From positions 1-53,235 of the forward strand of contig NZ_DAHVHY010000005.1 of NCBI RefSeq assembly GCF_027322205.1: a stretch of 53,235 nt of DNA, written 5' to 3'. Made by a program: the position numbers and the translations under genes. This document shows, piece by piece, positions 3,845 through 16,642 of the stretch. Position 1 is the first letter of the stretch; the number at the start of each line of letters is the position of its first letter. This stretch comes from Acidithiobacillus sp. GTDB taxonomy: Bacteria; Pseudomonadota; Gammaproteobacteria; Acidithiobacillales; Acidithiobacillaceae. Under the pieces are notes generated by a model, which did no database searches, was not told the origin of the DNA, and saw only the letters and a list, made by a program, of their open reading frames with translations.

Positions 3845-6064
3845 ATGACCGCCCAAAGCACCTTGCCCGCTAACGCTCCCGCCTTTTGCGCGGGTATGTT
3901 CCACTTTGGTGAATCCTGGCCGAATTTTGCGGAGTACGGCCGCAGTGCCGCCATCGCCGCTGGCCACAAAGCCATCCCGCATCCGGCGGCCAAAGCCGCC
4001 GTCTACCAGACCCTGCTCATGGCCGACGCCCTGCGCTACTGCACCTTGCAGATCTGCGCCGCCAAATCCTCCGGCCATCCCGGCGGCTTTGCCTCCAGCG
4101 TTGAGGCTTATGCGGCGCTGGTGATGCTCGGCCATACCAACATCGTCACCGAAGTGGGCCACCACGCCCCCGGTTTCTACAGCGCCATGTTCCTCGACAG
4201 CTCGCTGGAGGATATGGGTATCCGCGACATGAATGACATGATGGCGCGTTTCCGCGAACAGCATGGCCTGCTCGGCCATCTCTCCGGGGCGATCCCCGGC
4301 CTGTTGGCGCCAGCCGGCCCGTTGGGGCAGGGACAGCACTTTGCCATGGCGGGCGCGTTGCTGCACCCCGGTACTCTCTTCCCGGTGACCATCGGTGACG
4401 GCGGTTTTGGGGAGCCTTATGTGTTGAGCGCCATGAAGCACTTCCACTTTGCCTACCCGCGGGTCACCAACTACCTGCCGGTGCTGGTCTGGAATGGCTT
4501 TAGTCAGGAGCATCACTCCATGGTTTCCCTGATGACGAATGACGAGATGATCGCCTACTGGCGCGCCCATGACTTCGACGAAGTCATCCTGGTGGATGCC
4601 AGGGACTTCGACGATGCCGGTCAGGAAGGGGCCTATGTCGACTCCGCGCGCTTCTCCTTCGGCCAGCGGCTGGCCTTCATGGAGGCGGTGCTGACCGGTG
4701 TGGCCAGGGCGGCGGACCACGCCCTGGGCGGTCGTCACACCGCCTTCATTCTCAAGCAGTTGAAGGGGGCGGGCATGCATGTTTCGGGTGCCAAGTCCCA
4801 CAATCTCTATCCCAAGGACACCCCGGAATCGCCGGAGATCAGGACGGCGCTGGAGCAACGTGCCCTCAGTCCGGAAGCCTGGGCACTGGTGCGGGAGAAC
4901 TTCGCGCGGGCCGGTGGTGGTCCTGCCGCCAAAACGGCGGTGACCGAGCAGGTGTTGGAAATCGCCAAGCTGGGCGAATTTCCCATGCAGGATTTCGCCT
5001 TGGGCGAGCAGGTCGTGCCCGCCACCGCCATGGGCGCGTTGGTGGCCTGGCTGGGGCGGCAGGACCCACGCTTCGTGGTGACCAATGCCGACGGCAACGA
5101 AGCCTCGGCCATGAAGAACATCAATGACGCCCTGAAAATCCGCCACCCCACAGAGGACCCGCTCTACAACCAGCAGCCTGGGGGGCAGGTCTATGAACCC
5201 CTGAACGAGGATGCCTGCGCGGGTCTGGCGGCGGGACTGGCACTTTTCGGCAGCCGTTCCCTGTGGCTGTCTTATGAGTCCTTCGCCATTAACGGCTGGC
5301 CCATTATGCAGACGGTGGCCCAGGCCATGGCCGAACTGCGCCGCAAGACCCCGTCCACCGTCTGTATGTTCACCGCCGGTGCGCTGGAGCAGGGCCGCAA
5401 CGGTTGGACCCATCAGCGTCCGGAGATCGAGAATTACTTTGCCGCGCAGATGCGCAACGGCAACGTCTTCCTGCTCTATCCCACCGATGCCAATACCATC
5501 CAGGCGGCCTACGAGTACGCGGTGAACAGCGTCAACAAGTCGATGGTGATTGTGGCTTCCAAGAGCCCCCTGCCGGTGCGCCTGAGCATGGCACAGGCCC
5601 GCGCGGCGGTGCGCAAGGGGGCGGCGCTCTTGCATGATACGGGTGCAGGGCAGCGCGGCACCGTGACCCTGGCGGTGACCGGCGATATGGTTCTGCTGCC
5701 GGTTTTCGCCGCCAGGGACGTGCTGGAGAAGGAGGGGTATCGGGTGCGGATCGTGTCGGTGATTAACCCACGTCAGTTGTATCGTCCGGTGGATGTGGCC
5801 GCGCATACCGTTTCCGAAGCCGATACCGGCTTCATGCGCGACGCGGATTTCCACGCCCTCTTCGCCGGGGACTGGCTGCTGGGCATCAGCGGCGGCACTT
5901 CCGGGGCGCTGGAGCCGGTGCTGCTGCGTAGCCGGGCGACACAGCGCGATGTGCTGGCCTGGTTGCGGGGGGAGACCACCGCGACGCCGGGTGAGTTGAT
6001 GGCCTTCAACGGGATTACCGCCGAGACCATCGTCGGTAAGATCCACGGCTTCAACGCCGGATAA
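3845..6064 (+). CDS. Phosphoketolase/transketolase-like TPP-dependent enzyme
   Basis: A 739-residue protein starting at ATG 3845, inside a longer open frame that is a chance extension over the promoter. The N-terminal half carries a transketolase-like SSGHPGGFASSVEA and the TPP/Mg motif GDGGFGEPY...LVWNG (GDG about 26 residues before Asn). The C-terminal half is closest to phosphoketolase (XFP): LWLSYESFAINGWPIMQ, RNGWTHQRPEIENYF, LYPTDANTIQAA, SKSPLPVRLSM, and a short final domain. XFP cleaves xylulose-5-P or fructose-6-P to acetyl-P and an aldose phosphate, while transketolases move C2 units. At 739 residues it is shorter than typical XFP (~800) and lacks several of its signature blocks, so the exact reaction is open. 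It begins an operon with a DUF1537 kinase and glycolate oxidase, so the substrate is probably linked to C2-C4 acids. Confidence 0.75.
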   Translation: MTAQSTLPANAPAFCAGMFHFGESWPNFAEYGRSAAIAAGHKAIPHPAAKAAVYQTLLMADALRYCTLQICAAKSSGHPGGFASSVEAYAALVMLGHTNIVTEVGHHAPGFYSAMFLDSSLEDMGIRDMNDMMARFREQHGLLGHLSGAIPGLLAPAGPLGQGQHFAMAGALLHPGTLFPVTIGDGGFGEPYVLSAMKHFHFAYPRVTNYLPVLVWNGFSQEHHSMVSLMTNDEMIAYWRAHDFDEVILVDARDFDDAGQEGAYVDSARFSFGQRLAFMEAVLTGVARAADHALGGRHTAFILKQLKGAGMHVSGAKSHNLYPKDTPESPEIRTALEQRALSPEAWALVRENFARAGGGPAAKTAVTEQVLEIAKLGEFPMQDFALGEQVVPATAMGALVAWLGRQDPRFVVTNADGNEASAMKNINDALKIRHPTEDPLYNQQPGGQVYEPLNEDACAGLAAGLALFGSRSLWLSYESFAINGWPIMQTVAQAMAELRRKTPSTVCMFTAGALEQGRNGWTHQRPEIENYFAAQMRNGNVFLLYPTDANTIQAAYEYAVNSVNKSMVIVASKSPLPVRLSMAQARAAVRKGAALLHDTGAGQRGTVTLAVTGDMVLLPVFAARDVLEKEGYRVRIVSVINPRQLYRPVDVAAHTVSEADTGFMRDADFHALFAGDWLLGISGGTSGALEPVLLRSRATQRDVLAWLRGETTATPGELMAFNGITAETIVGKIHGFNAG

Positions 6065-6076
6065 GGATTGCAGCGA

Positions 6077-7414
6077 ATGGCCGACGCCGACAGCAAAATC
6101 ATCGTCATTGACGACGACCCCACGGGTTCGCAAACAGTGCATTCATGCCTGCTGCTCACCCGCTGGGATACGGAAACGCTGGGCATCGCCCTGCGCGATC
6201 CGGCCCCGCTCTTTTTTGTCCTCAGCAACACCCGGGGCATGGCGGCCGCGCAGGCGGCGGCGGTGACCCGCGAAATCTGCCGGAATCTGCGGGTGGCGCT
6301 GGACCGCTTGGCGGCGACGGGGCAGGCGCTACGGCCTATTCTGGTGAGCCGTTCCGACTCCACCTTGCGCGGCCATTATCCGGTGGAAACCGACGTCATG
6401 GCCGAGGAATTGGGGCCGTTCGACGCCCACTTCCTGGTCCCCGCTTTTTTTGAGGGCGGGCGCATCACCCGCGACGGCGTGCATTACGTGCGCCAGAACG
6501 GGGTTGAAACGCCCGCCCACGAGACGGAGTTTGCCCAGGATTCGGTGTTTGCCTTCCATCACAGCTTTCTGCCGGATTATGTGGAGGAGAAGACCCAGGG
6601 GCGGATTCCGGCGGTGGTGGTGGAGCGCCTGACGCTGGCGGAGTTGCATGCCGGTTGTCTGCCGCGTCTACTGGCGCTCAGGGACAACGCTTGTGTGGTG
6701 GTGGATGCCGTGGAGCCTGCCGATCTCGCCGCTTTTGCCCGGGATTTGCGAGTGGCGGCGGCACAGGGCAAGCGCTTCCTGTTCCGTAGCGCCGCCAGCC
6801 TGTTGACGGCGCTGGCGGACTTGCCGCCGCAGCCGGTCGCGGCCATTGATATGGCGCGACTGGTGCGCGGCGGCAAGCCGGGTGCCATCGTGGTCGGCTC
6901 CCATGTGCGCAAAAGCACCGAGCAACTGGAGCGCCTATTGCAGGAGCCCGGTCTGGAGGCGATCGAGGTGAATGTGGATGCCTGCGCTGGCGACGCGCGT
7001 TCCAGGCAATTGCCAGCCATTTTGCAGCAGGCGGCAGCGGCGCACGACAAAGGGTTGGACGTGGTCATCTACACCAGCCGCAGTGAGCGCCGTTTTGCCG
7101 ATCAGGCTGCCCGCCTGGCCTTTGGGGAGGCGGTGTCGGCTTTCCTCATGGCCGTGGTGCGAGGCTTGCCGGAGGACCTCGGCTTCCTCATCAGCAAGGG
7201 CGGTATTACCTCCAATGATGTGCTCAGCAGTGGCCTTGCCCTGCGCATGGCGCGGGTCATGGGGCAGATTCTGCCGGGCTGCTCGGTAGTGACCTGCCCT
7301 GCTGATCACCCCCGCACGCCCAATCTGCCGGTGGTGATTTTCCCCGGCAATGTGGGGGATGCGGAGGGCCTCGCGCTCGTCCGTCGGCGGTTACGCGGTG
7401 CGGCAATCGAGTGA
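6077..7414 (+). CDS. DUF1537 (four-carbon acid sugar kinase family) protein
   Basis: A 445-residue protein; ATG 6077 lies 9 nt after AAGGA (6063-6067) and is preferred to an upstream TTG at 6068. The N-terminal domain begins IIVIDDDPTGSQTVHSC, the subfamily version of the DD-x-TG motif of DUF1537 kinases, followed by SRSDSTLRGHYP for sugar-acid binding. The C-terminal nucleotide-binding domain has AIVVGSHVRKSTEQL and LGFLISKGGITSNDVLSSG, plus a glycine-rich end (VVIFPGNVGD). Characterised relatives phosphorylate threonate, erythronate or 3-oxo-tetronate with ATP. The gene follows the TPP enzyme by 12 bp and overlaps glcD by 4 bp (GTGA), so they work together. The specific acid substrate is not predictable. 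Confidence 0.85.
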   Translation: MADADSKIIVIDDDPTGSQTVHSCLLLTRWDTETLGIALRDPAPLFFVLSNTRGMAAAQAAAVTREICRNLRVALDRLAATGQALRPILVSRSDSTLRGHYPVETDVMAEELGPFDAHFLVPAFFEGGRITRDGVHYVRQNGVETPAHETEFAQDSVFAFHHSFLPDYVEEKTQGRIPAVVVERLTLAELHAGCLPRLLALRDNACVVVDAVEPADLAAFARDLRVAAAQGKRFLFRSAASLLTALADLPPQPVAAIDMARLVRGGKPGAIVVGSHVRKSTEQLERLLQEPGLEAIEVNVDACAGDARSRQLPAILQQAAAAHDKGLDVVIYTSRSERRFADQAARLAFGEAVSAFLMAVVRGLPEDLGFLISKGGITSNDVLSSGLALRMARVMGQILPGCSVVTCPADHPRTPNLPVVIFPGNVGDAEGLALVRRRLRGAAIE

Positions 7415-8889
7415 CGCGTTCCATGTCTGCCCCTCCTGACAGCGCCGCCTTCCTCGCCGAACTGCGGGCGGCGCTGTCTGCGGAGGCGGTATTGAGCGGT
7501 GCGGAAGATTTGCGGCCCTATGAATGCGACGGCCTCTCGGTGCTGCGCGAGTTGCCGCTCTGTGTGGTATTGCCCACGGACCGGGAGGGCGTGCAGGCGG
7601 TCCTGCACCTCTGCCAGCGTTATGGCGTGGCGGTGGTGCCGCGTGGCGCGGGTACCGGTCTATCGGGGGGCGCCCGCCCGATCCGCGGCGCGGTCCTCCT
7701 CAGCCTGGCCCGCCTGCGTGATATCCTCGCCATCGACTTGGAAAACCGTACCGCGCGGGTGCAGCCGGGCGTGCGTAATCTGGCCATCAGCGAAGCGGCC
7801 CGCCCCTTGGGCCTGTATTACGCGCCCGACCCCTCCTCGCAGATCGCCTGCAGCATCGGCGGCAATGTGGCGGAAAATTCCGGGGGGGTGCATTGCCTGA
7901 AATACGGTCTCACCGTCCACAATATTCTGGCACTGGAAGTGCTGACGGCGGCGGGCGAAGCCCTGCAGATTGGTAGCCAGGCCCCCGACAGCCCCGGCTA
8001 TGATTTGCTGGCGCTGATGACCGGCTCCGAGGGCCTGCTCGGGGTGGTGACCGAATGCACGGTGCGCCTGCTGCCAGTGCCGGAGCATACGCTGGTGCTG
8101 CTTGCCGCTTTCTCCAGCGTCGTGGCGGCGGCGGAGTCGGTCGGTGCCATCATTGCCGCCGGGATCATCCCTGCCGGATTAGAGATGATGGATCAGCTCG
8201 CCATCGAAGCCGCCGAGGATTTTGTCCACGCCGGCTATCCCCGCGATGCGGCCGCGATCCTCCTCTGCGAACTGGATGGCTCGGTCGTAGAGCTGAAAGA
8301 GCGCCGCCAGGAAGTGGAGGTGATTCTCCAACGCCACGGCGCCAGTGCCATCCGCATGGCCGAGGATGCCGCGACCCGCCTGCTGCTCTGGAAAGGTCGC
8401 AAAGCCGCCTTCCCGGCGGTGGGGCGTTTGGCCCCGGACTACTACTGCATGGATGGCACGATACCCCGTCAGCGTCTCGCCGAGGTGTTGGAGCGGATCG
8501 CCGCCTGGTCGGTCGAATATGGTCTGCGGGTCGCCAATGTTTTTCACGCGGGCGATGGTAATCTGCATCCTCTGATTCTTTACGACGCCAACGCCGAGGG
8601 GCAGTTGCACGCCGCTGAGGAATTTGGACGCCGCATCCTTGAACTCTGCGTGGCCGTCGGTGGCAGTGTCACTGGCGAGCACGGCGTCGGTGTCGAGAAG
8701 CTGGACAGCATGTGCGTCCAGTTCAACGCCGCCGAACTGGCGCAGTTGCATCGCATCAAACACGCCTTCGACCCCGAAGATCGCCTCAATCCCGGAAAGG
8801 CCGTGCCCAGCCTGCATCGCTGCGCCGAGCTGGGAGCCATGCATGTGCATCATGGCCGGTTGCCTTTCCCCGAACTGGAGCGTTTTTGA
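7411..8889 (+). CDS. glcD: Glycolate oxidase FAD subunit GlcD
   Basis: A 492-residue FAD-linked oxidase of the VAO/PCMH type, matching GlcD in length. The FAD-binding part shows VVPRGAGTGLSGGARP, IACSIGGNVAENSGGVHC and LMTGSEGLLGVVTE. The C-terminal substrate cap ends with NVFHAGDGNLHPLILYD and GGSVTGEHGVGVEK, whose His, Glu and Lys residues are typical of glycolate and D-lactate oxidising members. With GlcE and GlcF it oxidises glycolate to glyoxylate and passes electrons to the membrane quinone pool. GTG 7411 overlaps the previous stop; ATG 7423 is an alternative start. In a CO2-fixing organism the obvious role is salvage of glycolate from RuBisCO oxygenation. Confidence 0.92.
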   Translation: MTRSMSAPPDSAAFLAELRAALSAEAVLSGAEDLRPYECDGLSVLRELPLCVVLPTDREGVQAVLHLCQRYGVAVVPRGAGTGLSGGARPIRGAVLLSLARLRDILAIDLENRTARVQPGVRNLAISEAARPLGLYYAPDPSSQIACSIGGNVAENSGGVHCLKYGLTVHNILALEVLTAAGEALQIGSQAPDSPGYDLLALMTGSEGLLGVVTECTVRLLPVPEHTLVLLAAFSSVVAAAESVGAIIAAGIIPAGLEMMDQLAIEAAEDFVHAGYPRDAAAILLCELDGSVVELKERRQEVEVILQRHGASAIRMAEDAATRLLLWKGRKAAFPAVGRLAPDYYCMDGTIPRQRLAEVLERIAAWSVEYGLRVANVFHAGDGNLHPLILYDANAEGQLHAAEEFGRRILELCVAVGGSVTGEHGVGVEKLDSMCVQFNAAELAQLHRIKHAFDPEDRLNPGKAVPSLHRCAELGAMHVHHGRLPFPELERF

Positions 8890-8890
8890 C

Positions 8891-9955
8891 ATGGACCAGA
8901 GCCAGACCTTACAGGCGATCGTGCAGGAGGCCCACGCCAGATCCCGGCCCCTCGCCATTCGCGGCGGCGGGAGCAAGGCGTTCTATGGCCGCCAAACGCC
9001 GGAATGCGATCGGCTCGATCTCAGCGGCCATCAGGGCATCGTCGACTACGCGCCCAATGAACTCTTCATCACCTTGCGCGCGGGTACACCTTTGCAGGTA
9101 CTCGAAGCACAACTGTCGGAAGCCGGACAGATACTGCCCTTTGAACCCCCGCACTTCGGACCCGCCGCGACCATCGGCGGCACGCTGGCCTGCGGTTTTT
9201 CCGGTCCGCGCCGCCCCTACGCCGGGTCGGCCCGCGACACGGTGCTGGGCATGCGCATCCTCAACGGGCAGGGCGAAATCCTGCGCTTTGGCGGGCAGGT
9301 CATGAAAAATGTCGCCGGTTATGATGTTTCCCGCTTGATGGTGGGCGCGCTCGGCACCTTGGGCGTCCTGCTCGAGGTGAGCCTCAAGGTGCTGCCGCGT
9401 CCCGATCATGCCGTGACTCTGGTGCAGCGGGTGGACCCCGCCACCGCCGTCCAGCGCATGAATCTCTGGGCTGGACAACCCCTGCCGCTCTCCGCTACGG
9501 CGTATGATGGCGAGCACCTGTATATACGTCTTTCCGGCACCGGAAGCGCCGTGCGGGCGGCACAGACCCGGCTGGGTGGCGAAAGGTTGCCCGATGCCGA
9601 GGCGGCAGCCTTCTGGGTGGCCCTGCGCGAACAGCGGCACGTTTTTTTTCAGGGGGATGCGCCCTTGTGGCGTCTGGCCGTTGCCCCGGCCACACCGCCC
9701 TTGCCTCTCGCGGGCCAGACCCTCGTCGAATGGGGCGGCGGTCAGCGCTGGCTGCGTGGTGTCCGCGATGCGACGGCCTTGCGGCAGTTGGTGGCGGAGC
9801 ACGGTGGTCACGCCACCCTTTTTCGCGGCGGCGATCGCCACGATGAGGTCTTTCATCCCCTCACACCACCGCTGCTGGCCGTACAACAACGGCTCAAAGC
9901 GGCCTTCGACCCGCGCGCCGTCCTCAATCCCGGCCATCTTTACGTCGTCCTCTGA
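8891..9955 (+). CDS. glcE: Glycolate oxidase FAD-binding subunit GlcE
   Basis: A 354-residue protein, the expected GlcE size, with a single FAD-binding domain: PLAIRGGGSKAFYGR near residue 20, FGPAATIGGTLACGFSGPRR, and FGGQVMKNVAGYDVSRLMVG. It lacks the long cap domain of GlcD and ends in the common AAFDPRAVLNPGHLY tail. It is the accessory flavoprotein of the GlcDEF complex and is needed for activity in Escherichia coli. It starts one base after the glcD stop codon, so translation is coupled. The N-terminal extension of the open frame upstream of 8891 overlaps glcD and is not part of the protein. Confidence 0.92.
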   Translation: MDQSQTLQAIVQEAHARSRPLAIRGGGSKAFYGRQTPECDRLDLSGHQGIVDYAPNELFITLRAGTPLQVLEAQLSEAGQILPFEPPHFGPAATIGGTLACGFSGPRRPYAGSARDTVLGMRILNGQGEILRFGGQVMKNVAGYDVSRLMVGALGTLGVLLEVSLKVLPRPDHAVTLVQRVDPATAVQRMNLWAGQPLPLSATAYDGEHLYIRLSGTGSAVRAAQTRLGGERLPDAEAAAFWVALREQRHVFFQGDAPLWRLAVAPATPPLPLAGQTLVEWGGGQRWLRGVRDATALRQLVAEHGGHATLFRGGDRHDEVFHPLTPPLLAVQQRLKAAFDPRAVLNPGHLYVVL

Positions 9956-9964
9956 GGCTCGCCC

Positions 9965-11230
9965 ATGCAAACCCACATCGCCCCCCGCTTTCAGAATGAC
10001 CCCAGCGTGACCGAGGCCGACGCCATTCTGCGCAGTTGCGTCCATTGCGGCTTTTGCACCGCCACCTGTCCCACCTACCAAATTCTCGGTGACGAACTGG
10101 ATGGTCCGCGCGGCCGCATCTATCTCATCAAGGAATTCTTCGCCGGTGCCCCGGCCACGGAACACACCCTGAAGCATTTGGACCGCTGTCTCACCTGCCG
10201 CGCCTGCGAAACCACCTGTCCTTCCGGCGTGCGCTACGCGCGGCTGGCGGAAATCGGTCGCGCGCATATTGAGGCAGAAGTGGGTCGCCCGGCACTGGAG
10301 CGGCTGAAGCGCCGCCTGCTGCGTGCTATCGTCCCCCATCCCGAGCGCTTCCGGCTGCTGGTACAATTCGGCGATGCTTGCAAACCTCTGCTGCCGGAAG
10401 CCTTGGCGCGCAAGGTCCCAGCCCTGCCCAAACCCTTGCCGGCCAGATCCACCGTCTTGAAACCGGCCCACCAACGGCGGGTCATCGCCCTCGCCGGCTG
10501 CGTACAAAGCGTGATGACTCCGGCGACAGGGGCGGCGCTGGAACAACTACTCGGCACCCTCGGTATCGCTGCAGAGGTTCCGGCCAGCGCCGGCTGCTGT
10601 GGTGCCCTCAGCCTGCACCTCGGCGCCCACAGCGAAGCCCACGACTACATGCGTCGCAACATCGACGCCTGGTGGCCGCTGATCGAGGCTGGCGCTGAAG
10701 CCATTCTGGTCAGCGCCAGCGGCTGCGGCAGTATGGTCAAGGAATATGGGGAGGCGCTGCAAAACGATCCGGACTATGCCGAAAAGGCCGCGCGCGTCGC
10801 CGCTCTGGCCCGCGACCCCAGTGAATGGCTTCTGGAACGCGCCGGAGAAATCCCTTTCGTGGCCGCGGATCGCGGCACCGTCGCCTTCCACGCCCCCTGT
10901 TCCCTGCAACACGCCCAGCGCTTGCAAGGCGGGGTCGAAATGCTCCTGCAACGAGCCGGTTACCGCTTGACCAGGGTCCGCGACGGTCATCTTTGTTGTG
11001 GCTCGGCGGGCACTTACTCTATTTTGCAGCCGGTGCTGTCCCAGCAGCTGCGCAATCAGAAATTGGAGGCTTTGCAGGCAGAGCAGCCGGATTGTATCGC
11101 CACGGCCAATGTCGGCTGCCAGATGCACCTGCAAAGCGGCAGTGAGACTCCGGTTCGTCATTGGCTGGAACTGTGTGCCGAGGCATTGGCACCCGCTGGA
11201 AGAGAGAGTGTTTCCTCAACTCAGCCGTAG
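9965..11230 (+). CDS. glcF: Glycolate oxidase iron-sulfur subunit GlcF
   Basis: A 421-residue protein with two ferredoxin-type 4Fe-4S motifs near the N-terminus (CVHCGFCTATCPTY and CLTCRACETTCPSGV) and two CCG domains in the C-terminal half (SAGCCGALSLHLG; HAPCSLQ with LCCGSAGTYSI), as in GlcF and heterodisulfide-reductase-like subunits. It would carry electrons from the flavin subunits to quinones. It lies 9 bp after glcE. Its 3' end overlaps the convergent CorA gene by 15 bp, so no separate terminator fits between them. All cysteine ligands appear present, so the complex should be active. Confidence 0.93.
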   Translation: MQTHIAPRFQNDPSVTEADAILRSCVHCGFCTATCPTYQILGDELDGPRGRIYLIKEFFAGAPATEHTLKHLDRCLTCRACETTCPSGVRYARLAEIGRAHIEAEVGRPALERLKRRLLRAIVPHPERFRLLVQFGDACKPLLPEALARKVPALPKPLPARSTVLKPAHQRRVIALAGCVQSVMTPATGAALEQLLGTLGIAAEVPASAGCCGALSLHLGAHSEAHDYMRRNIDAWWPLIEAGAEAILVSASGCGSMVKEYGEALQNDPDYAEKAARVAALARDPSEWLLERAGEIPFVAADRGTVAFHAPCSLQHAQRLQGGVEMLLQRAGYRLTRVRDGHLCCGSAGTYSILQPVLSQQLRNQKLEALQAEQPDCIATANVGCQMHLQSGSETPVRHWLELCAEALAPAGRESVSSTQP

Positions 11231-12130
11231 CCACCCCTTGCGGTAAAACACCCAGGCCGTCAGCACTTCCACCAGCACTAGCCCGCCGGTCACCGCCGCA
11301 AAGCCATAACGCCAGTGTGGAAAAGGCCCCAGCGGCACGTTCATGGCTGCGGCACCCGGAATAAAGAGCGGAATCGTCGCGAGAATGATCAGCGCCGCCA
11401 TGAATTTGAAGAGGTGGTTCACGTTGTTGTGCACCACATAAGCATAAGACTCCAGCAGTTCATTGATGGTCGCCTGATCACTGTCCACCTGATCCCGCAC
11501 CTGGGACAGTTCGATGCGGGTATCTTCATGAATTTCCACCAGGTCAGCATCCTCGCTGGGGAGAAAATGACCGATTTCACTGACCACGTACTCCAGTTGC
11601 AGCAGGCCCAGATCCAGCGCCAGCAGGCGGTCATTGATGTCCAGACCGCGATACACCACGTCATGCCGTTGCGCCTGGCGCAGATCCCGTTCCACCACGG
11701 CCATCTCCCGGGCCACTGAACGCGCGGTGGGCAGATAATTGCGGGTGACTTCGGCGATGATGCGCAGTACCAGCTCCCAGCGTTTACTCGGTTTCTGCGG
11801 ATCAATCAGGTGGCTCAGGAAGGGAATCTCCCGCTCGGCCAGGGTGACAAAATAGCCGGGCACGAAATACAAACTCAGGGGCACCAGCGTGAATTGTCCT
11901 GCTGCACCTTCTTTCGGTAGTGGCACCTGGAATTGCAAAGAAATCAACCGTTCTTCTTTGATCAGCGGGCGCGATGCCTCGCCTTCCAGGCGTTTGCGCA
12001 GGAAGCTCTCGGGGATGTCCAGGGTCGTCGCCGCCTGGGTCAGTTCGCTGGCCGAGGGGGCGACCAATGCCATCCAGCTCCGCCGGTTGGCGTTTCCGGA
12101 CAGCAGAGAATCGCGGGTGATGCGCATCAT
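11216..12130 (-). CDS. CorA-family divalent cation transporter with AMN motif (fourth gene of array)
   Basis: A 304-residue CorA-family protein: a soluble N-terminal alpha/beta domain, a long stalk helix (~150-245, with YAYVVHNNVNHLFKFM entering the membrane) and two transmembrane helices separated by the periplasmic loop. The selectivity motif, normally Gly-Met-Asn, reads Ala-Met-Asn (residues 262-264, GAAAMNVPLG). The C-terminus FYRKGWLRLS is basic and short, as in CorA. Known CorA pentamers import Mg2+, Co2+ or Ni2+, while GMN variants such as ZntB (GIN) move Zn2+. It is the promoter-distal member of the four-gene array and ends inside the convergent glcF. Confidence 0.82.
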   Translation of the reverse strand: MMRITRDSLLSGNANRRSWMALVAPSASELTQAATTLDIPESFLRKRLEGEASRPLIKEERLISLQFQVPLPKEGAAGQFTLVPLSLYFVPGYFVTLAEREIPFLSHLIDPQKPSKRWELVLRIIAEVTRNYLPTARSVAREMAVVERDLRQAQRHDVVYRGLDINDRLLALDLGLLQLEYVVSEIGHFLPSEDADLVEIHEDTRIELSQVRDQVDSDQATINELLESYAYVVHNNVNHLFKFMAALIILATIPLFIPGAAAMNVPLGPFPHWRYGFAAVTGGLVLVEVLTAWVFYRKGWLRLS

Positions 12131-12140
12131 GGGGCGGCCC

Positions 12141-13040
12141 TCACATGGAAAAAAAGCCGTGTTTACGCGCCCAGCGCGCGAACAACCAGGTTACGCCGAA
12201 GACATAGGCGATTAATCCGAACCAGAGATAATGCCAATGCTCAAGAGGCAGGGGCGTCATCATGTGCCAGGGCATGATGAAAGCGATGGGCATCATGAGC
12301 AGGGCCAGCCATACCGTCATCACCTTCATCACCGTATGGGCATTGTTCTGGACAATGCCATTATAGGCATTGGTTACCGCCAGGTAGCGCTCATGAATCA
12401 GATTCACACCCTCTTCTATCCGGCGCTGTTCACGCAGCGCCGCGTCCAGCAACGGATAGGCCGGCGATTCACCGGCTGTGGCACGCAGCGCATCGCGGAG
12501 AATAAGGCCGGTTTCCCGCAGGGCGATAACCAGTTCGCCGAGGTCCCGATTCAGGACCACAATCTGGCGCAGTTCGACGTTACTCATGGAGGTTTTGAGG
12601 GCCATGCGCAGCTCCTGCAAACGTTCCACCAGCACCCGTGCTACCCGTTCGTGGCTATAGATGACATTCAGCAGCACGCGTTGCAGAACTTCGCCCACAG
12701 CGGTTTGCCGTAACTCGCCCAGCCAGTCCTGCTGCAACGGCTGGATCAGCGCTTCCTCGCCCAGAATCGCCAGACTCCGTGGCGTATGATGCAGGGTCAG
12801 GTGCGCCATCCGCGCTACCGTGCCGAACTGCGCATCTTTTTCCAGCAGGGCTACGGGCAGGCGCAGGGTCATTTCATCATGGTGACAATAAAGACGTTGT
12901 TCTACGCAGTGCCGCAGCGCGGCTTCTAATTGCGGGCACCGATTCACCTGCTCCGGCGTCAGCAGAAAAAGCCCTTCTGCCGTATAGCGTTCGGCGGCGA
13001 TCCAGGTCCCTTCCGTCTTATCGTAAAATTGACAACTCAT
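12141..13040 (-). CDS. Divergent CorA-like membrane protein lacking the GMN motif (third gene of array)
   Basis: A 299-residue protein with CorA-like architecture. The stalk helix contains NAYNGIVQNNAHTVMKVMTV, equivalent to the family's Q-N-N-x-x-x-x-x-K segment, and two C-terminal membrane helices follow. The selectivity loop aligns as PWHMMTPLPLEHW where relatives have IYGMNVPLPLQNW, so the Gly-Met-Asn signature is replaced by His-Met-Met (259-261). The N-terminal domain is also remote from the other three. It may be a non-transporting partner or a channel with altered specificity; this is inference. It sits 9-10 bp from both neighbours, clearly in one operon. Confidence 0.7.
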   Translation of the reverse strand: MSCQFYDKTEGTWIAAERYTAEGLFLLTPEQVNRCPQLEAALRHCVEQRLYCHHDEMTLRLPVALLEKDAQFGTVARMAHLTLHHTPRSLAILGEEALIQPLQQDWLGELRQTAVGEVLQRVLLNVIYSHERVARVLVERLQELRMALKTSMSNVELRQIVVLNRDLGELVIALRETGLILRDALRATAGESPAYPLLDAALREQRRIEEGVNLIHERYLAVTNAYNGIVQNNAHTVMKVMTVWLALLMMPIAFIMPWHMMTPLPLEHWHYLWFGLIAYVFGVTWLFARWARKHGFFSM

Positions 13041-13049
13041 GGCGCGCGC

Positions 13050-13991
13050 TCAGATCCAGTCTTTCTTGCGGAAGATCATGAACAGCATCCCGGATACCGC
13101 AAATCCGCCCCCCATGAGCACCGGCCACGCATAGATCCAATTCTGCAGGGGCAGGGGTACGTTCATCCCGTAGATGCTCGCCACCGTTGCCGGGGCCGCC
13201 ACGACCACGGTCCAGGCCGTGATGATTTTCAGGGTGTTGCTGATATTGTTTTGCAATACGCCGACATAGGCATCCATCATATTGGTAATGGTGGAGGCGT
13301 AAATTTCGGTCATGTCTCGCGCCTGCTGAAGATCGATGAGGGCGTCGGCGATGTCTTCCAGATCGCCCTCGTCCTGTTTGAGCAGCGGCAGGCGCATGGT
13401 TTGCTGAGCGACGGAGATATTACCTTTGAGCGCCGAAGAAAAGAGGATGAGGCTCTTATTGAGCGCGAGAAGTCGAAAGAATTCATTGTTATTCTGAGAG
13501 TTGCGAAGTATTTTCTCGGTTGCGGCAATTTCGGCGTTGATAATGCGCAGGGCGCGCAGATAGTCCCTGGCGATGGCCTGAAAAATCTCCGCCAGCAGCC
13601 CGCGCACATGCAGGGCCTTACCGCGCTGGCGCTGCCCGCGCAACTCGTCCCAGAGGGCAAGGGGCTGGGCGCTGGCCGTCACCATCTGCTGGGGCAGGAG
13701 CCAGAGTCCCACGGGCAGGGTACGGAAGCGCAGTTCGGCGGCGGCCTGCATGGGGGCGGGCACCTTGAGAATGATCAGGGCGATGTCGCCCTCCCGCTCC
13801 AGACGCGGGCGCTCATCCTCATCGGAAACGTCCTGAAACAGATAATCCGGTACCTGCAAATGCTGGGCGACAAAATCCAGCTCCGCGGTCGTCGGCGCCA
13901 CCACCTGAATCCAGGTGGCGCTCGGTGGCCACTGGAAGTCGGCGGTGACTTTCAGTTCAGCGTCCGTCTTTTCGTTAAACCAATGCAGCAT
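13050..13991 (-). CDS. CorA-type transporter with canonical GMN (second gene of array)
   Basis: A 313-residue protein, the normal CorA length. It has an N-terminal regulatory domain (~1-160), long stalk helix, the conserved DAYVGVLQNNISNTLKII leading into TM1, and the canonical YGMN motif (275-277 for GMN) followed by VPLPLQNWIYAWP and TM2, ending FRKKDWI. It should be a pentameric Mg2+ (Co2+/Ni2+) channel in the inner membrane. It is the only member of the array with an unaltered motif and so the best candidate for ordinary Mg2+ uptake. It is separated from the first gene by 30 bp and from the third by 9 bp. Confidence 0.88.
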   Translation of the reverse strand: MLHWFNEKTDAELKVTADFQWPPSATWIQVVAPTTAELDFVAQHLQVPDYLFQDVSDEDERPRLEREGDIALIILKVPAPMQAAAELRFRTLPVGLWLLPQQMVTASAQPLALWDELRGQRQRGKALHVRGLLAEIFQAIARDYLRALRIINAEIAATEKILRNSQNNNEFFRLLALNKSLILFSSALKGNISVAQQTMRLPLLKQDEGDLEDIADALIDLQQARDMTEIYASTITNMMDAYVGVLQNNISNTLKIITAWTVVVAAPATVASIYGMNVPLPLQNWIYAWPVLMGGGFAVSGMLFMIFRKKDWI

Positions 13992-14021
13992 TCCGTCCCC
14001 TCCGTGCGTCCGTCAGCCCGT

Positions 14022-14954
14022 TCATATCCAGCCTTTCCGCTTGAAAATCAGTGCCAGTCCGGTAGAAATGCTCGCCCCCAGACCCAGCACGACCCAAAAA
14101 ATCCAGTCGGTCTTCTGAAACGGCAGGGTCGTATTCACCCCGTAGAGGGTCGCCAGCAGACTCGGCACATAAAAGATCATGGCCAGCACCGTCACCACCT
14201 TCAGGCCATGATTGATGTTGTTCTGCACCATGCCGGCGTAGGCGTCCATCATCGACGTACTGGTTCCGGCATAGACCCGCGCCCGCTCATGGGCCACCTG
14301 CAATTCCAGCAGAGCCGTGTCGATCTGCCGGGTGGCGGGCAGATCGTCGCGGATTTCCGGCAGGCGGGAAATCTTGAAGGCCGTGGCGATATTGCCTACC
14401 AGTGCCACCTCAAAGCGGGTCAGACTTTTGCTGATCTCCAGCAGGGTAAAAAAGTCGCCATTGCTCTGGGTCCAGTCCAGTTGCTGCTCGTTATCGTGGA
14501 TGGCGGCATTGAGCTGATGCAGGGCGTCTTCGTAGCTCTGCGCCAGAATCTTGAGGATGGCGGCGAGAATTTCGACACTTTCCGGTGGGCTGGAAAGATG
14601 CTCCATCTGCGCGAAAAAAGGCGATAATGGCGCAAAATCCCGGGCCAGCACCGTGGTAATCCGGTTTCCTTGCAGGATGATGCCCAAGGGCCGTTGTTCC
14701 CAGCTATCGACACCCGCGTCATCCCCCTTCACCGGGAATTGCAACGTAATGAAGACGCGCGCGCCATCGCGACGCAGCCAGGAGCGCTCATCGGGGTCGA
14801 GGATGTCCTGGGCAAAGTCCCAGTCGTCCGCCAACTGCCCCGCCCGTTGCCAGTCCGCCGGCAGCGGTGCCGTGAGATGCTGCCAGCCGCCTGCCGCCGC
14901 CGGTTCGGGCGCCGACGTCAGGGCTTGCGGATCTGCTGGCAGGGACACATCCAT
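14022..14954 (-). CDS. CorA-family transporter with GVN motif (first gene of array)
   Basis: A 310-residue CorA-family protein with DAYAGMVQNNINHGLKVV at the stalk/TM1 junction. The selectivity motif is Gly-Val-Asn (272-274, in LYGVNTTLPFQKTDW). It has two C-terminal membrane helices and a basic tail FKRKGWI. GVN and GIN variants are known in the wider CorA/ZntB superfamily and are often associated with other metals, but specificity cannot be assigned from sequence alone. It is the promoter-proximal gene of four; the ATG at 14954 follows GGAGAG. The 146-bp gap to divergent moaB must carry the array promoter, for which I see no clear boxes. Confidence 0.83.
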   Translation of the reverse strand: MDVSLPADPQALTSAPEPAAAGGWQHLTAPLPADWQRAGQLADDWDFAQDILDPDERSWLRRDGARVFITLQFPVKGDDAGVDSWEQRPLGIILQGNRITTVLARDFAPLSPFFAQMEHLSSPPESVEILAAILKILAQSYEDALHQLNAAIHDNEQQLDWTQSNGDFFTLLEISKSLTRFEVALVGNIATAFKISRLPEIRDDLPATRQIDTALLELQVAHERARVYAGTSTSMMDAYAGMVQNNINHGLKVVTVLAMIFYVPSLLATLYGVNTTLPFQKTDWIFWVVLGLGASISTGLALIFKRKGWI

Positions 14955-15037
14955 GATGCTCTCCAGATCAGAAGCGGGCTATTTCGGCGCCAGTGCCCGG
15001 AATCAGCGCTTATGGAGAGCGCCGCATGCCGTGACCC

Positions 15038-15066
15038 TTGGACCGCAGGACGGAGCCTTTTATACT
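15038..15066 (+). promoter_or_regulatory. Sigma-70-type promoter of moaB
   Basis: -35 TTGGAC (15038-15043) and -10 TATACT (15061-15066) are spaced by 17 bp, about 35 bp before the GTG start of moaB. It lies in the gap between the divergent CorA array and moaB, and probably also drives the methyltransferase and lipoprotein genes. Confidence 0.6.
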
Positions 15067-15100
15067 GGACTTTCCGTCATCCTGTAAAGGGAATACCGCC

Positions 15101-15643
15101 GTGAGCAGTGCGCAGCAGCCACCCGAAAGCAAAGCCTTTTTACCCCTCGCCATTGCCATCCTCACTGTCTCCGACAGCCGTACGCCGGAAACCGACCAGT
15201 CCGGTGACAAAATTGCCGAACTCGCCAGTCAGGCCGGACACCGGATCGCTGTCCGCCAGATCATCGCCGACGACGCCGAAAGCCTGCGCACGCAACTGCG
15301 TGACTGGATCGCCGACCCCGCCATCGACGTGATCATCGCCACCGGCGGCACCGGTGTCACCGGCCGCGATGTCACCCCCGAAGCCCTCGCCCCCCTCATC
15401 AGCAAGCCCATCCCCGGCTTCGGCGAACTCTTCCGCATGCTCTCCTATCAGGAGATCGGCACCAGCACCATCCAGTCCCGTGCCGAAGCTGCCATCTGCG
15501 ATGGCACCATCGTGTTCCTTCTTCCCGGTTCCACCGGCGGCGTCCGTCTCGGCATGGAGGCCATCATCATCCCACAACTGGATATCCGGCACCGCCCTTG
15601 CAACCTCAGCGAACTGCTGCCGCGCATCCGCCACGAGCAGTGA
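15101..15643 (+). CDS. moaB: Molybdenum cofactor biosynthesis protein MoaB/MogA family
   Basis: A 180-residue protein with the molybdopterin-binding fold. The family motifs are [17 protein letters not shown] near residue 25 and [15 protein letters not shown] near residue 85, followed by [17 protein letters not shown] and a glycine-rich [16 protein letters not shown]. MoaB/MogA proteins adenylate molybdopterin before molybdate insertion; in MoaB the activity varies by organism. GTG 15101 is chosen because AAGGGA (15086-15091) sits 9 nt upstream; an in-frame ATG at 15038 would lie within the promoter. The next gene follows by 10 bp. Confidence 0.9.
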
Positions 15644-15653
15644 GGGTACGGCC

Positions 15654-16193
15654 ATGACAGACGACGAAAAGCGGGCGCACTGGGACGCCTGCTATGCGCA
15701 AGTGGAGGCGGTGGAGCCAGAGCCGCTGCCTTTTTTGACGGCGCATGCGGATTGGCTGCCCGCCAGTGGCCGGGCGCTGGATCTGGCCTGTGGACGGGGC
15801 GGGAATGCGTTGTTTCTGGCACGCCGCGGTCTGGAGACTGAGGCCTGGGACTATGCGGAAAGCGCCGTGGCCGGGCTGCGCGAGCGGGCCGTTGGCTTGC
15901 CCCTGCAGGTGCAATGCCGGGATGTGATTGCCCGGCCACCGGCGCCCGAGTCATTTGCAGTGATCGTGGTTACGCATTTTTTGCACCGGCCGCTGTTCCC
16001 GGCGCTGGCGGCGGCGCTGCGGCCCGGCGGCTTGCTGTTTTATGAGACGTGGGCCGGGGCGTATGCCGGGCGCGGGCCACAGAATATGGCGTATCGGCTG
16101 GGTTTAGGGGAGTTGGCAGGGGCTTTCACGGGGCTGATTTTACTGGAATTGCAGGAGGATGTGGATCGGGCGGCAGGGGTCTGGCGGTGCTAA
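15654..16193 (+). CDS. Class I SAM-dependent methyltransferase, TehB-like
   Basis: A 179-residue Rossmann-fold methyltransferase. Motif I is ALDLACGRGGNALFLARRG, followed by an acidic residue at the end of strand 2 (ETEAWDYAESAV), VQCRDVIARPP as motif II, and LRPGGLLFYETWAGAY as the post-II segment. The size and order match small TehB/UbiE-like proteins. The substrate is unknown. It is the second gene of the moaB operon and overlaps the lipoprotein start by 7 bp. Confidence 0.78.
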   Translation: MTDDEKRAHWDACYAQVEAVEPEPLPFLTAHADWLPASGRALDLACGRGGNALFLARRGLETEAWDYAESAVAGLRERAVGLPLQVQCRDVIARPPAPESFAVIVVTHFLHRPLFPALAAALRPGGLLFYETWAGAYAGRGPQNMAYRLGLGELAGAFTGLILLELQEDVDRAAGVWRC

Positions 16194-16642
16194 GGCCGCA
16201 CGCTCTGTTTCTCTCCGCCGCCATCCTCCTGGGCGGCTGCGCCACCCAACCGGCCGCGACAACCCGCACGCCAACCCCGAAGCGGGGCATCGCCCACACC
16301 CGTCATGCGACACTAGACTGGGTTGGCACCTATGCGGGTGTGCTCCCCTGCGCAGACTGCCCCGGCGTGCGTGAGGTCATCACGTTAAACAAAGATCACG
16401 CCTATGAGATCACCACCCAATACGTGGGTCGTGGTGACCAGCTTTTTCGGCGCGGGAATGTGTTCTCCTGGATCGATGGCAACACCATCCGGCTGGAGGG
16501 CGTGGGCGCTGGGCCGAAGCTCTACCGTGTCGGCGCGAACCGGCTCACCCAACTGGGTAGGGATGGCCAAGTGATCACAGGCCCCCTCGCGGCGCGTTTT
16601 ATCCTGAAAAAAATTGCCAAAACCCGGCGGAAACGCGGATAA
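16187..16642 (+). CDS. NlpE-like outer membrane lipoprotein
   Basis: The GTG at 16187 gives a 151-residue protein with a lipoprotein signal peptide, [12 protein letters not shown], where Cys is the lipidation site. A longer open frame upstream overlaps the methyltransferase in another frame and should be ignored. The mature part matches the NlpE N-terminal domain: [17 protein letters not shown] with the CxxC motif, then a small beta-barrel ending [12 protein letters not shown]. NlpE senses surface contact, copper and lipoprotein trafficking faults and signals to the Cpx system in enterobacteria; whether that holds here is unknown. It ends 7 bp before mnmG. Confidence 0.8.

Follow-up and report, generated by a model that had tools for sequence, protein, structure and literature searches.

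The textbook Mg2+ channel of bacteria is CorA; it has been studied as an assembly of five identical subunits, and its opening through asymmetric states is a matter of debate. What, then, do four different CorA-family genes do when they stand side by side, and would their products make four channels or a single mixed one? We address this question for a locus of an Acidithiobacillus sp. (assembly GCF_027322205.1, contig NZ_DAHVHY010000005.1), the window being the whole stretch of 53,235 nucleotides that was analysed.

Layout of the array and identity of its genes

Four CorA-family genes occupy the minus strand of the window from 14954 to 11216 in a head-to-tail tandem, with a promoter-like block upstream:

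15059..15088, minus strand: promoter-like block of the array; TTTACA (15088-15083), 18 nt, TATAAA (15064-15059), from alignment
14022..14954, minus strand: c1, CorA-family subunit 1, 310 aa; filter GVN, codons 14133-14141; open reading frame and PF01544 match, 127 bits
13050..13991, minus strand: c2, CorA-family subunit 2, 313 aa; canonical filter GMN, codons 13161-13169; PF01544, 170 bits
12141..13040, minus strand: c3, CorA-family subunit 3, 299 aa; filter HMM, codons 12258-12266; PF01544, 61 bits
11216..12130, minus strand: c4, CorA-family subunit 4, 304 aa; filter AMN, codons 11339-11347; PF01544, 90 bits

The intergenic gaps are 30 bp (c1-c2), 9 bp (c2-c3) and 10 bp (c3-c4), and the 3' end of c4 overlaps glcF by 15 bp, tail to tail. 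The Pfam threshold for CorA (PF01544) is 27 bits, and each of the four proteins exceeds it; the match in c3 covers residues 99-287. The sequence-only reading had proposed four tandem CorA-family genes with these spacings and the motifs GVN, GMN, HMM and AMN in order of transcription; the open reading frames and PF01544 scores bear out the genes and their gaps, and the alignment bears out the motifs, including the loss of GMN from c3. Against TIGR00383, the equivalog model of the CorA Mg/Co transporter, c1 to c4 score 72, 103, 22 and 63 bits and do not reach the cut-off of 200.75, so that the array proteins are not filed as classical CorA. Neither do they reach the cut-off of 292 for ZntB (NF007092; c1 31 bits, c2 21 bits, no score for c3 and c4). 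No other PF01544 match was found in the source genome (2.28 Mb, approximately 90% complete). At the protein level c3 is 93% identical to its counterpart in A. ferrivorans DSM 22755 and 92% to that in A. ferriphilus.

We predict that the genes form an operon on the basis of their shared strand, their spacing and the one conserved promoter-like block 5' of c1. This block, which was read from an alignment and is absent from the sites listed by a promoter scan, carries TTTACA in all 14 same-genus genomes aligned, followed by TATAAA in 11 and TATAAG in the remaining 3. Rfam gave no match in 11000-15400 (E up to 1), which speaks against a metal riboswitch or any other RNA of a known family.

The plus strand at 3848-11230 encodes a phosphoketolase-like protein with XFP domains, a kinase-like protein of the SBD_N/NBD_C (DUF1537) type and, ending tail to tail with c4, a glycolate oxidase-like glcDEF set; several same-genus genomes have no glc genes beside the array. 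Divergent from the array, 15101-16642 encodes a MoaB/Mog-type molybdopterin-binding protein, a methyltransferase and a lipoprotein with an NlpE domain.

The array itself is already known. Tran et al. 2017 (PMC5468388) described a conserved four-gene 'cor cluster' in Acidithiobacillus, with five genes in A. caldus, which comprises the same corA genes and synteny as the present array and was ascribed to Mn/Zn/Co handling as a metal-resistance trait. The main text of that paper makes no mention of the GMN motif, paralogues or selectivity, and we found no description of how the residues of filter, gate and sensor are shared out among the subunits.

Conservation across the Acidithiobacillaceae

The sequence-only reading had proposed checking whether related genomes keep the array, and had held that confinement to a single strain with signs of decay would speak against it. 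Within a family sample of 29 genomes the array is present in 15/15 Acidithiobacillus genomes with the site assembled, and it occurs in two further genera, g3 (both genomes) and g4 (four genomes). Partial arrays were seen solely at contig ends: in G015, of the same genus, the array begins at a contig end within c1, and in G023 (g4) one end of it lies at a contig edge. Its apparent absence from two other genomes is uninformative because in G007 the contig ends inside moaB, beside the array site, and in G006 moaB is missing too. No CorA of any kind was found in g2 (G017) or in G025.

Filters are fixed by position, the same four recurring in the same order in all 15 same-genus arrays, with gaps of 30, 7-9 and 10-16 bp. 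The g4 array reads GVN, GMN, HME and AMN (HMN instead of HME in G023), and that of g3 consists of five genes reading GVN, AMN, GMN, HMN and SMN. The second of the five g3 genes, which is the additional one (L062:5965-6897), encodes a Met-Ala-Met-Asn (AMN) filter and belongs to the c2-like group. In most of the genus the array adjoins moaB; none of the window's neighbour genes were found around the g3 and g4 arrays, and although the neighbours differ there, the order of the array is kept.

An IQ-TREE phylogeny of 105 proteins, including 17 single CorAs, placed c1, c3 and c4 in one clade each across the three genera (support 100/99 to 100/100), and c2 together with the extra g3 gene in a clade of weaker support (83/88). 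Relationships among the four subunit clades are weakly supported, and all array members fall on one side of the branch separating the 17 single CorAs. For every array gene in six genome pairs dN/dS was 0.02-0.24, indicating purifying selection. The most canonical and generally best conserved member is c2, which is 95% identical to its A. ferrooxidans counterpart and has the lowest dN/dS in that comparison (0.03-0.04). Per-position clades and purifying selection imply that the duplications are older than the genus split and that all copies were retained, and family-wide conservation together with the dN/dS values rules out a decaying or strain-specific array.

The four-gene CorA arrangement is rare. 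PF01544 matches in 184 other gammaproteobacterial genomes formed tandem pairs at most, among the coordinates listed, and c2-like proteins at 1e-15 were found in 0/273 other Gammaproteobacteria. Array-type relatives were single and weak, and present in 4/398 Pseudomonadota. Phyla outside the Pseudomonadota were covered by a c3 scan of a genome collection, which returned 11 loci (ten Acidithiobacillus and one proteobacterial MAG), and by plasmid records, which held only distant relatives under 60% identity.

Filter, pore and fold

The family rule is GxN, where x is Met, Val or Ile (reviewed in PMC9276622). The filters of c1 and c2 follow it, and those of c3 and c4 depart from it. Pore columns, numbered after TmCorA of Thermotoga maritima, hold the following residues in the window (c1/c2/c3/c4):

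Column 277: D/D/N/E
Column 288: N/S/H/N
Column 291: L/L/M/F
Column 294: V/I/M/M
Column 302: Y/A/M/T
Column 305: S/A/I/L
Column 309: T/S/M/G
Column 312: G/G/H/A
Column 314: N/N/M/N

The TM1 of c3 is Met-rich. Across the 8 c3 orthologues aligned, Met is invariant at positions 291, 294, 302, 309 and 313, and His at positions 288 and 312. Identity between genera reaches 78% in TM1 of c3 and 82% in that of c4, as against only 22% in the diverged N-terminal domain of c3. TM1 and the filter form the most conserved region in c1, c3 and c4, and the cytosolic end of the stalk does so in c2. Pore-facing columns were not significantly more subunit-specific than neighbouring ones (p = 0.075-0.10).

The CorA fold, with an alpha/beta N-domain, a long stalk helix and two C-terminal TM helices, is supported for c3 by a predicted model with a mean pLDDT of 80, which Foldseek matched to TmCorA at E 2.9e-10 (TM-scores reaching 0.70), and for c1, c2 and c4 by sequence only. 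The closest solved structure by sequence is MjCorA of Methanocaldococcus jannaschii (PDB 4CY4, 4EV6), the best match both of c2 alone (E 5e-20) and of a c1/c2/c4 profile (E 3e-43). Like the array proteins, MjCorA is a short CorA without the MPEL loop, which is absent from all array proteins and present in the single CorAs of the genus; unlike them, it has no array, and it was solved as a single-protein GMN channel. TmCorA shares the fold and helix plan of the array proteins, but consists of five identical subunits that keep GMN and MPEL, with a full sensor in each.

The magnesium-sensor pair and other transporter families

Positions of the sensor pair D89/D253 also follow TmCorA, D89 having been mapped at about 20-30% identity. 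Asp occupies both equivalents in c2 of every genus holding the array. The D89 equivalent alone is kept by c1 in its own genus and in g3, and D253 alone by c4, which has Lys or Arg at position 89; c3 has no Asp at 253 and cannot be aligned at 89. With c1 as the D89 half and c4 as the D253 half, a complete site could be restored where c1 and c4 meet, an argument weakened by the E or Q that replaces D89 in c1 of g4.

Other CorA, MgtE or above-cut-off MgtA proteins were found in neither the source genome nor G012 and G018. G017 (99% complete) likewise has no CorA or MgtE match and no above-cut-off MgtA, which leaves it no obvious route for taking up Mg2+. The case for the array as the only Mg2+ importer is weak, because G017 does without all of these families.

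One mixed channel or four separate ones?

We favour, with slightly less than even confidence, a heteromeric CorA channel: conduction and sensing would fall to c2 and c1, and c3 and c4 would be modifiers. The four proteins would be made together as subunits of one CorA-type divalent-cation channel, where c2 (GMN, complete D89/D253) and c1 (GVN) may form the conducting, Mg-sensing core, and c3 (HMM) and c4 (AMN, Lys/Arg at 89) may join the same ring to alter pore width, rectification or Mg feedback, so that the channel would be asymmetric by construction. We infer co-assembly and its stoichiometry, uptake as the direction of transport and Mg2+ as the main substrate. Several things lead us to this reading: order, spacing and motif by position are conserved, with no partial arrays inside contigs and with the order kept among other neighbours in g3 and g4; c1, c3 and c4 each form a single orthologous clade, and dN/dS is low for every gene; c3 and c4 lack GxN, yet TM1 is their best-kept region; the sensor halves of c1 and c4 could complement each other; and hetero-oligomers have been proposed for relatives, while asymmetric states take part in CorA gating (PMC8865849). 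Among these relatives are CorA1-CorA3 of Cupriavidus metallidurans, likewise several bacterial CorA paralogues, for which a mixed complex was proposed for Co2+ import (cited in PMC6972854, whose excerpted text describes no tandem four-gene array for them). Hetero-oligomers were also proposed for yeast Alr1/Alr2 (cited in PMC6972854). That pair and Mrs2/Lpe10 are CorA-family pairs that, according to studies cited in PMC9276622 and PMC6972854 and in part to general knowledge, co-assemble or modulate one another, but unlike the array they are eukaryotic, of two proteins and without a tandem operon. An obligate heteropentamer of fixed subunit order, with filter, hydrophobic gate and Mg sensor split among the four products (five in g3), is a stricter version that we consider unlikely.

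The main rival, a serious if lesser possibility, is four separate homopentamers made from one operon that have come to differ in gating or in the metal they prefer; the Met/His-rich pore of c3 might serve a softer metal, for instance, and c4 might be insensitive to cytosolic Mg2+. Every gene encodes a full-length CorA-family chain (for the c3 N-terminal domain by predicted fold), so self-assembly is possible, and this counts against a heteromer, as does the lack of significantly greater subunit-specificity in pore-facing columns. The pore rings differ nearly everywhere, with the c3 Met and His invariant, and operon linkage and co-loss would fit separate channels under one regulator as well. 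However, differences in GMN/GxN did not separate substrates among the proteins tested, in that TmCorA, MjCorA and ZntB are promiscuous, each of them transporting Mg, Co, Ni and Zn (PMC6972854); loss of the filter G or N, or other GxN disruption, impairs single-protein CorA/Mrs2 channels, growth being reduced when GMN of Mrs2 is changed to AAA (PMC11919701); and a fixed order with an all-or-none array across the family exceeds what independent channels need. Two GxN and two non-GxN members in fixed order and of family-wide age would, we infer, be easier to reconcile with one mixed channel than with four independent channels. Of the two explanations in the sequence-only reading, mixed pentamers gain circumstantial support from the position-fixed order and motifs, the two non-GxN subunits and the apparently split sensor pair; transport of several metals is weakened for c1 versus c2 only, because GVN and GMN both lie in the normal range of the family (PMC9276622) and relatives are promiscuous.

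It is improbable that c2, with or without c1, is the sole real channel and that c3 and c4 stay outside the pore ring, as partners that do not conduct or as negative regulators: the canonical character and conservation of c2 and the low identity of the c3 N-terminal domain between genera fit such a role, but TM1 and the filter being best conserved in c3 and c4 is unexpected outside a pore. A system for removing Mn, Zn or Co, as in the published annotation of the cor cluster (PMC5468388), is more improbable still, as that reading is based on annotation only and CorA-fold channels carry divalent cations inward; the shortage of other importers in the source genome, G012 and G018 also speaks against it, though weakly given G017. 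Tandem duplication is a frequent source of such gene clusters and could have left plain gene dosage, with redundant copies diverging neutrally or decaying. Intact frames, purifying selection and position-specific motifs in three genera have already largely refuted this idea, to which we give very little credence.

If the heteromeric channel is real, the array would be a natural genetic and structural test of symmetry-breaking in CorA. It would also show what the GxN motif is for, because two of its subunits have kept non-GxN filters under selection.
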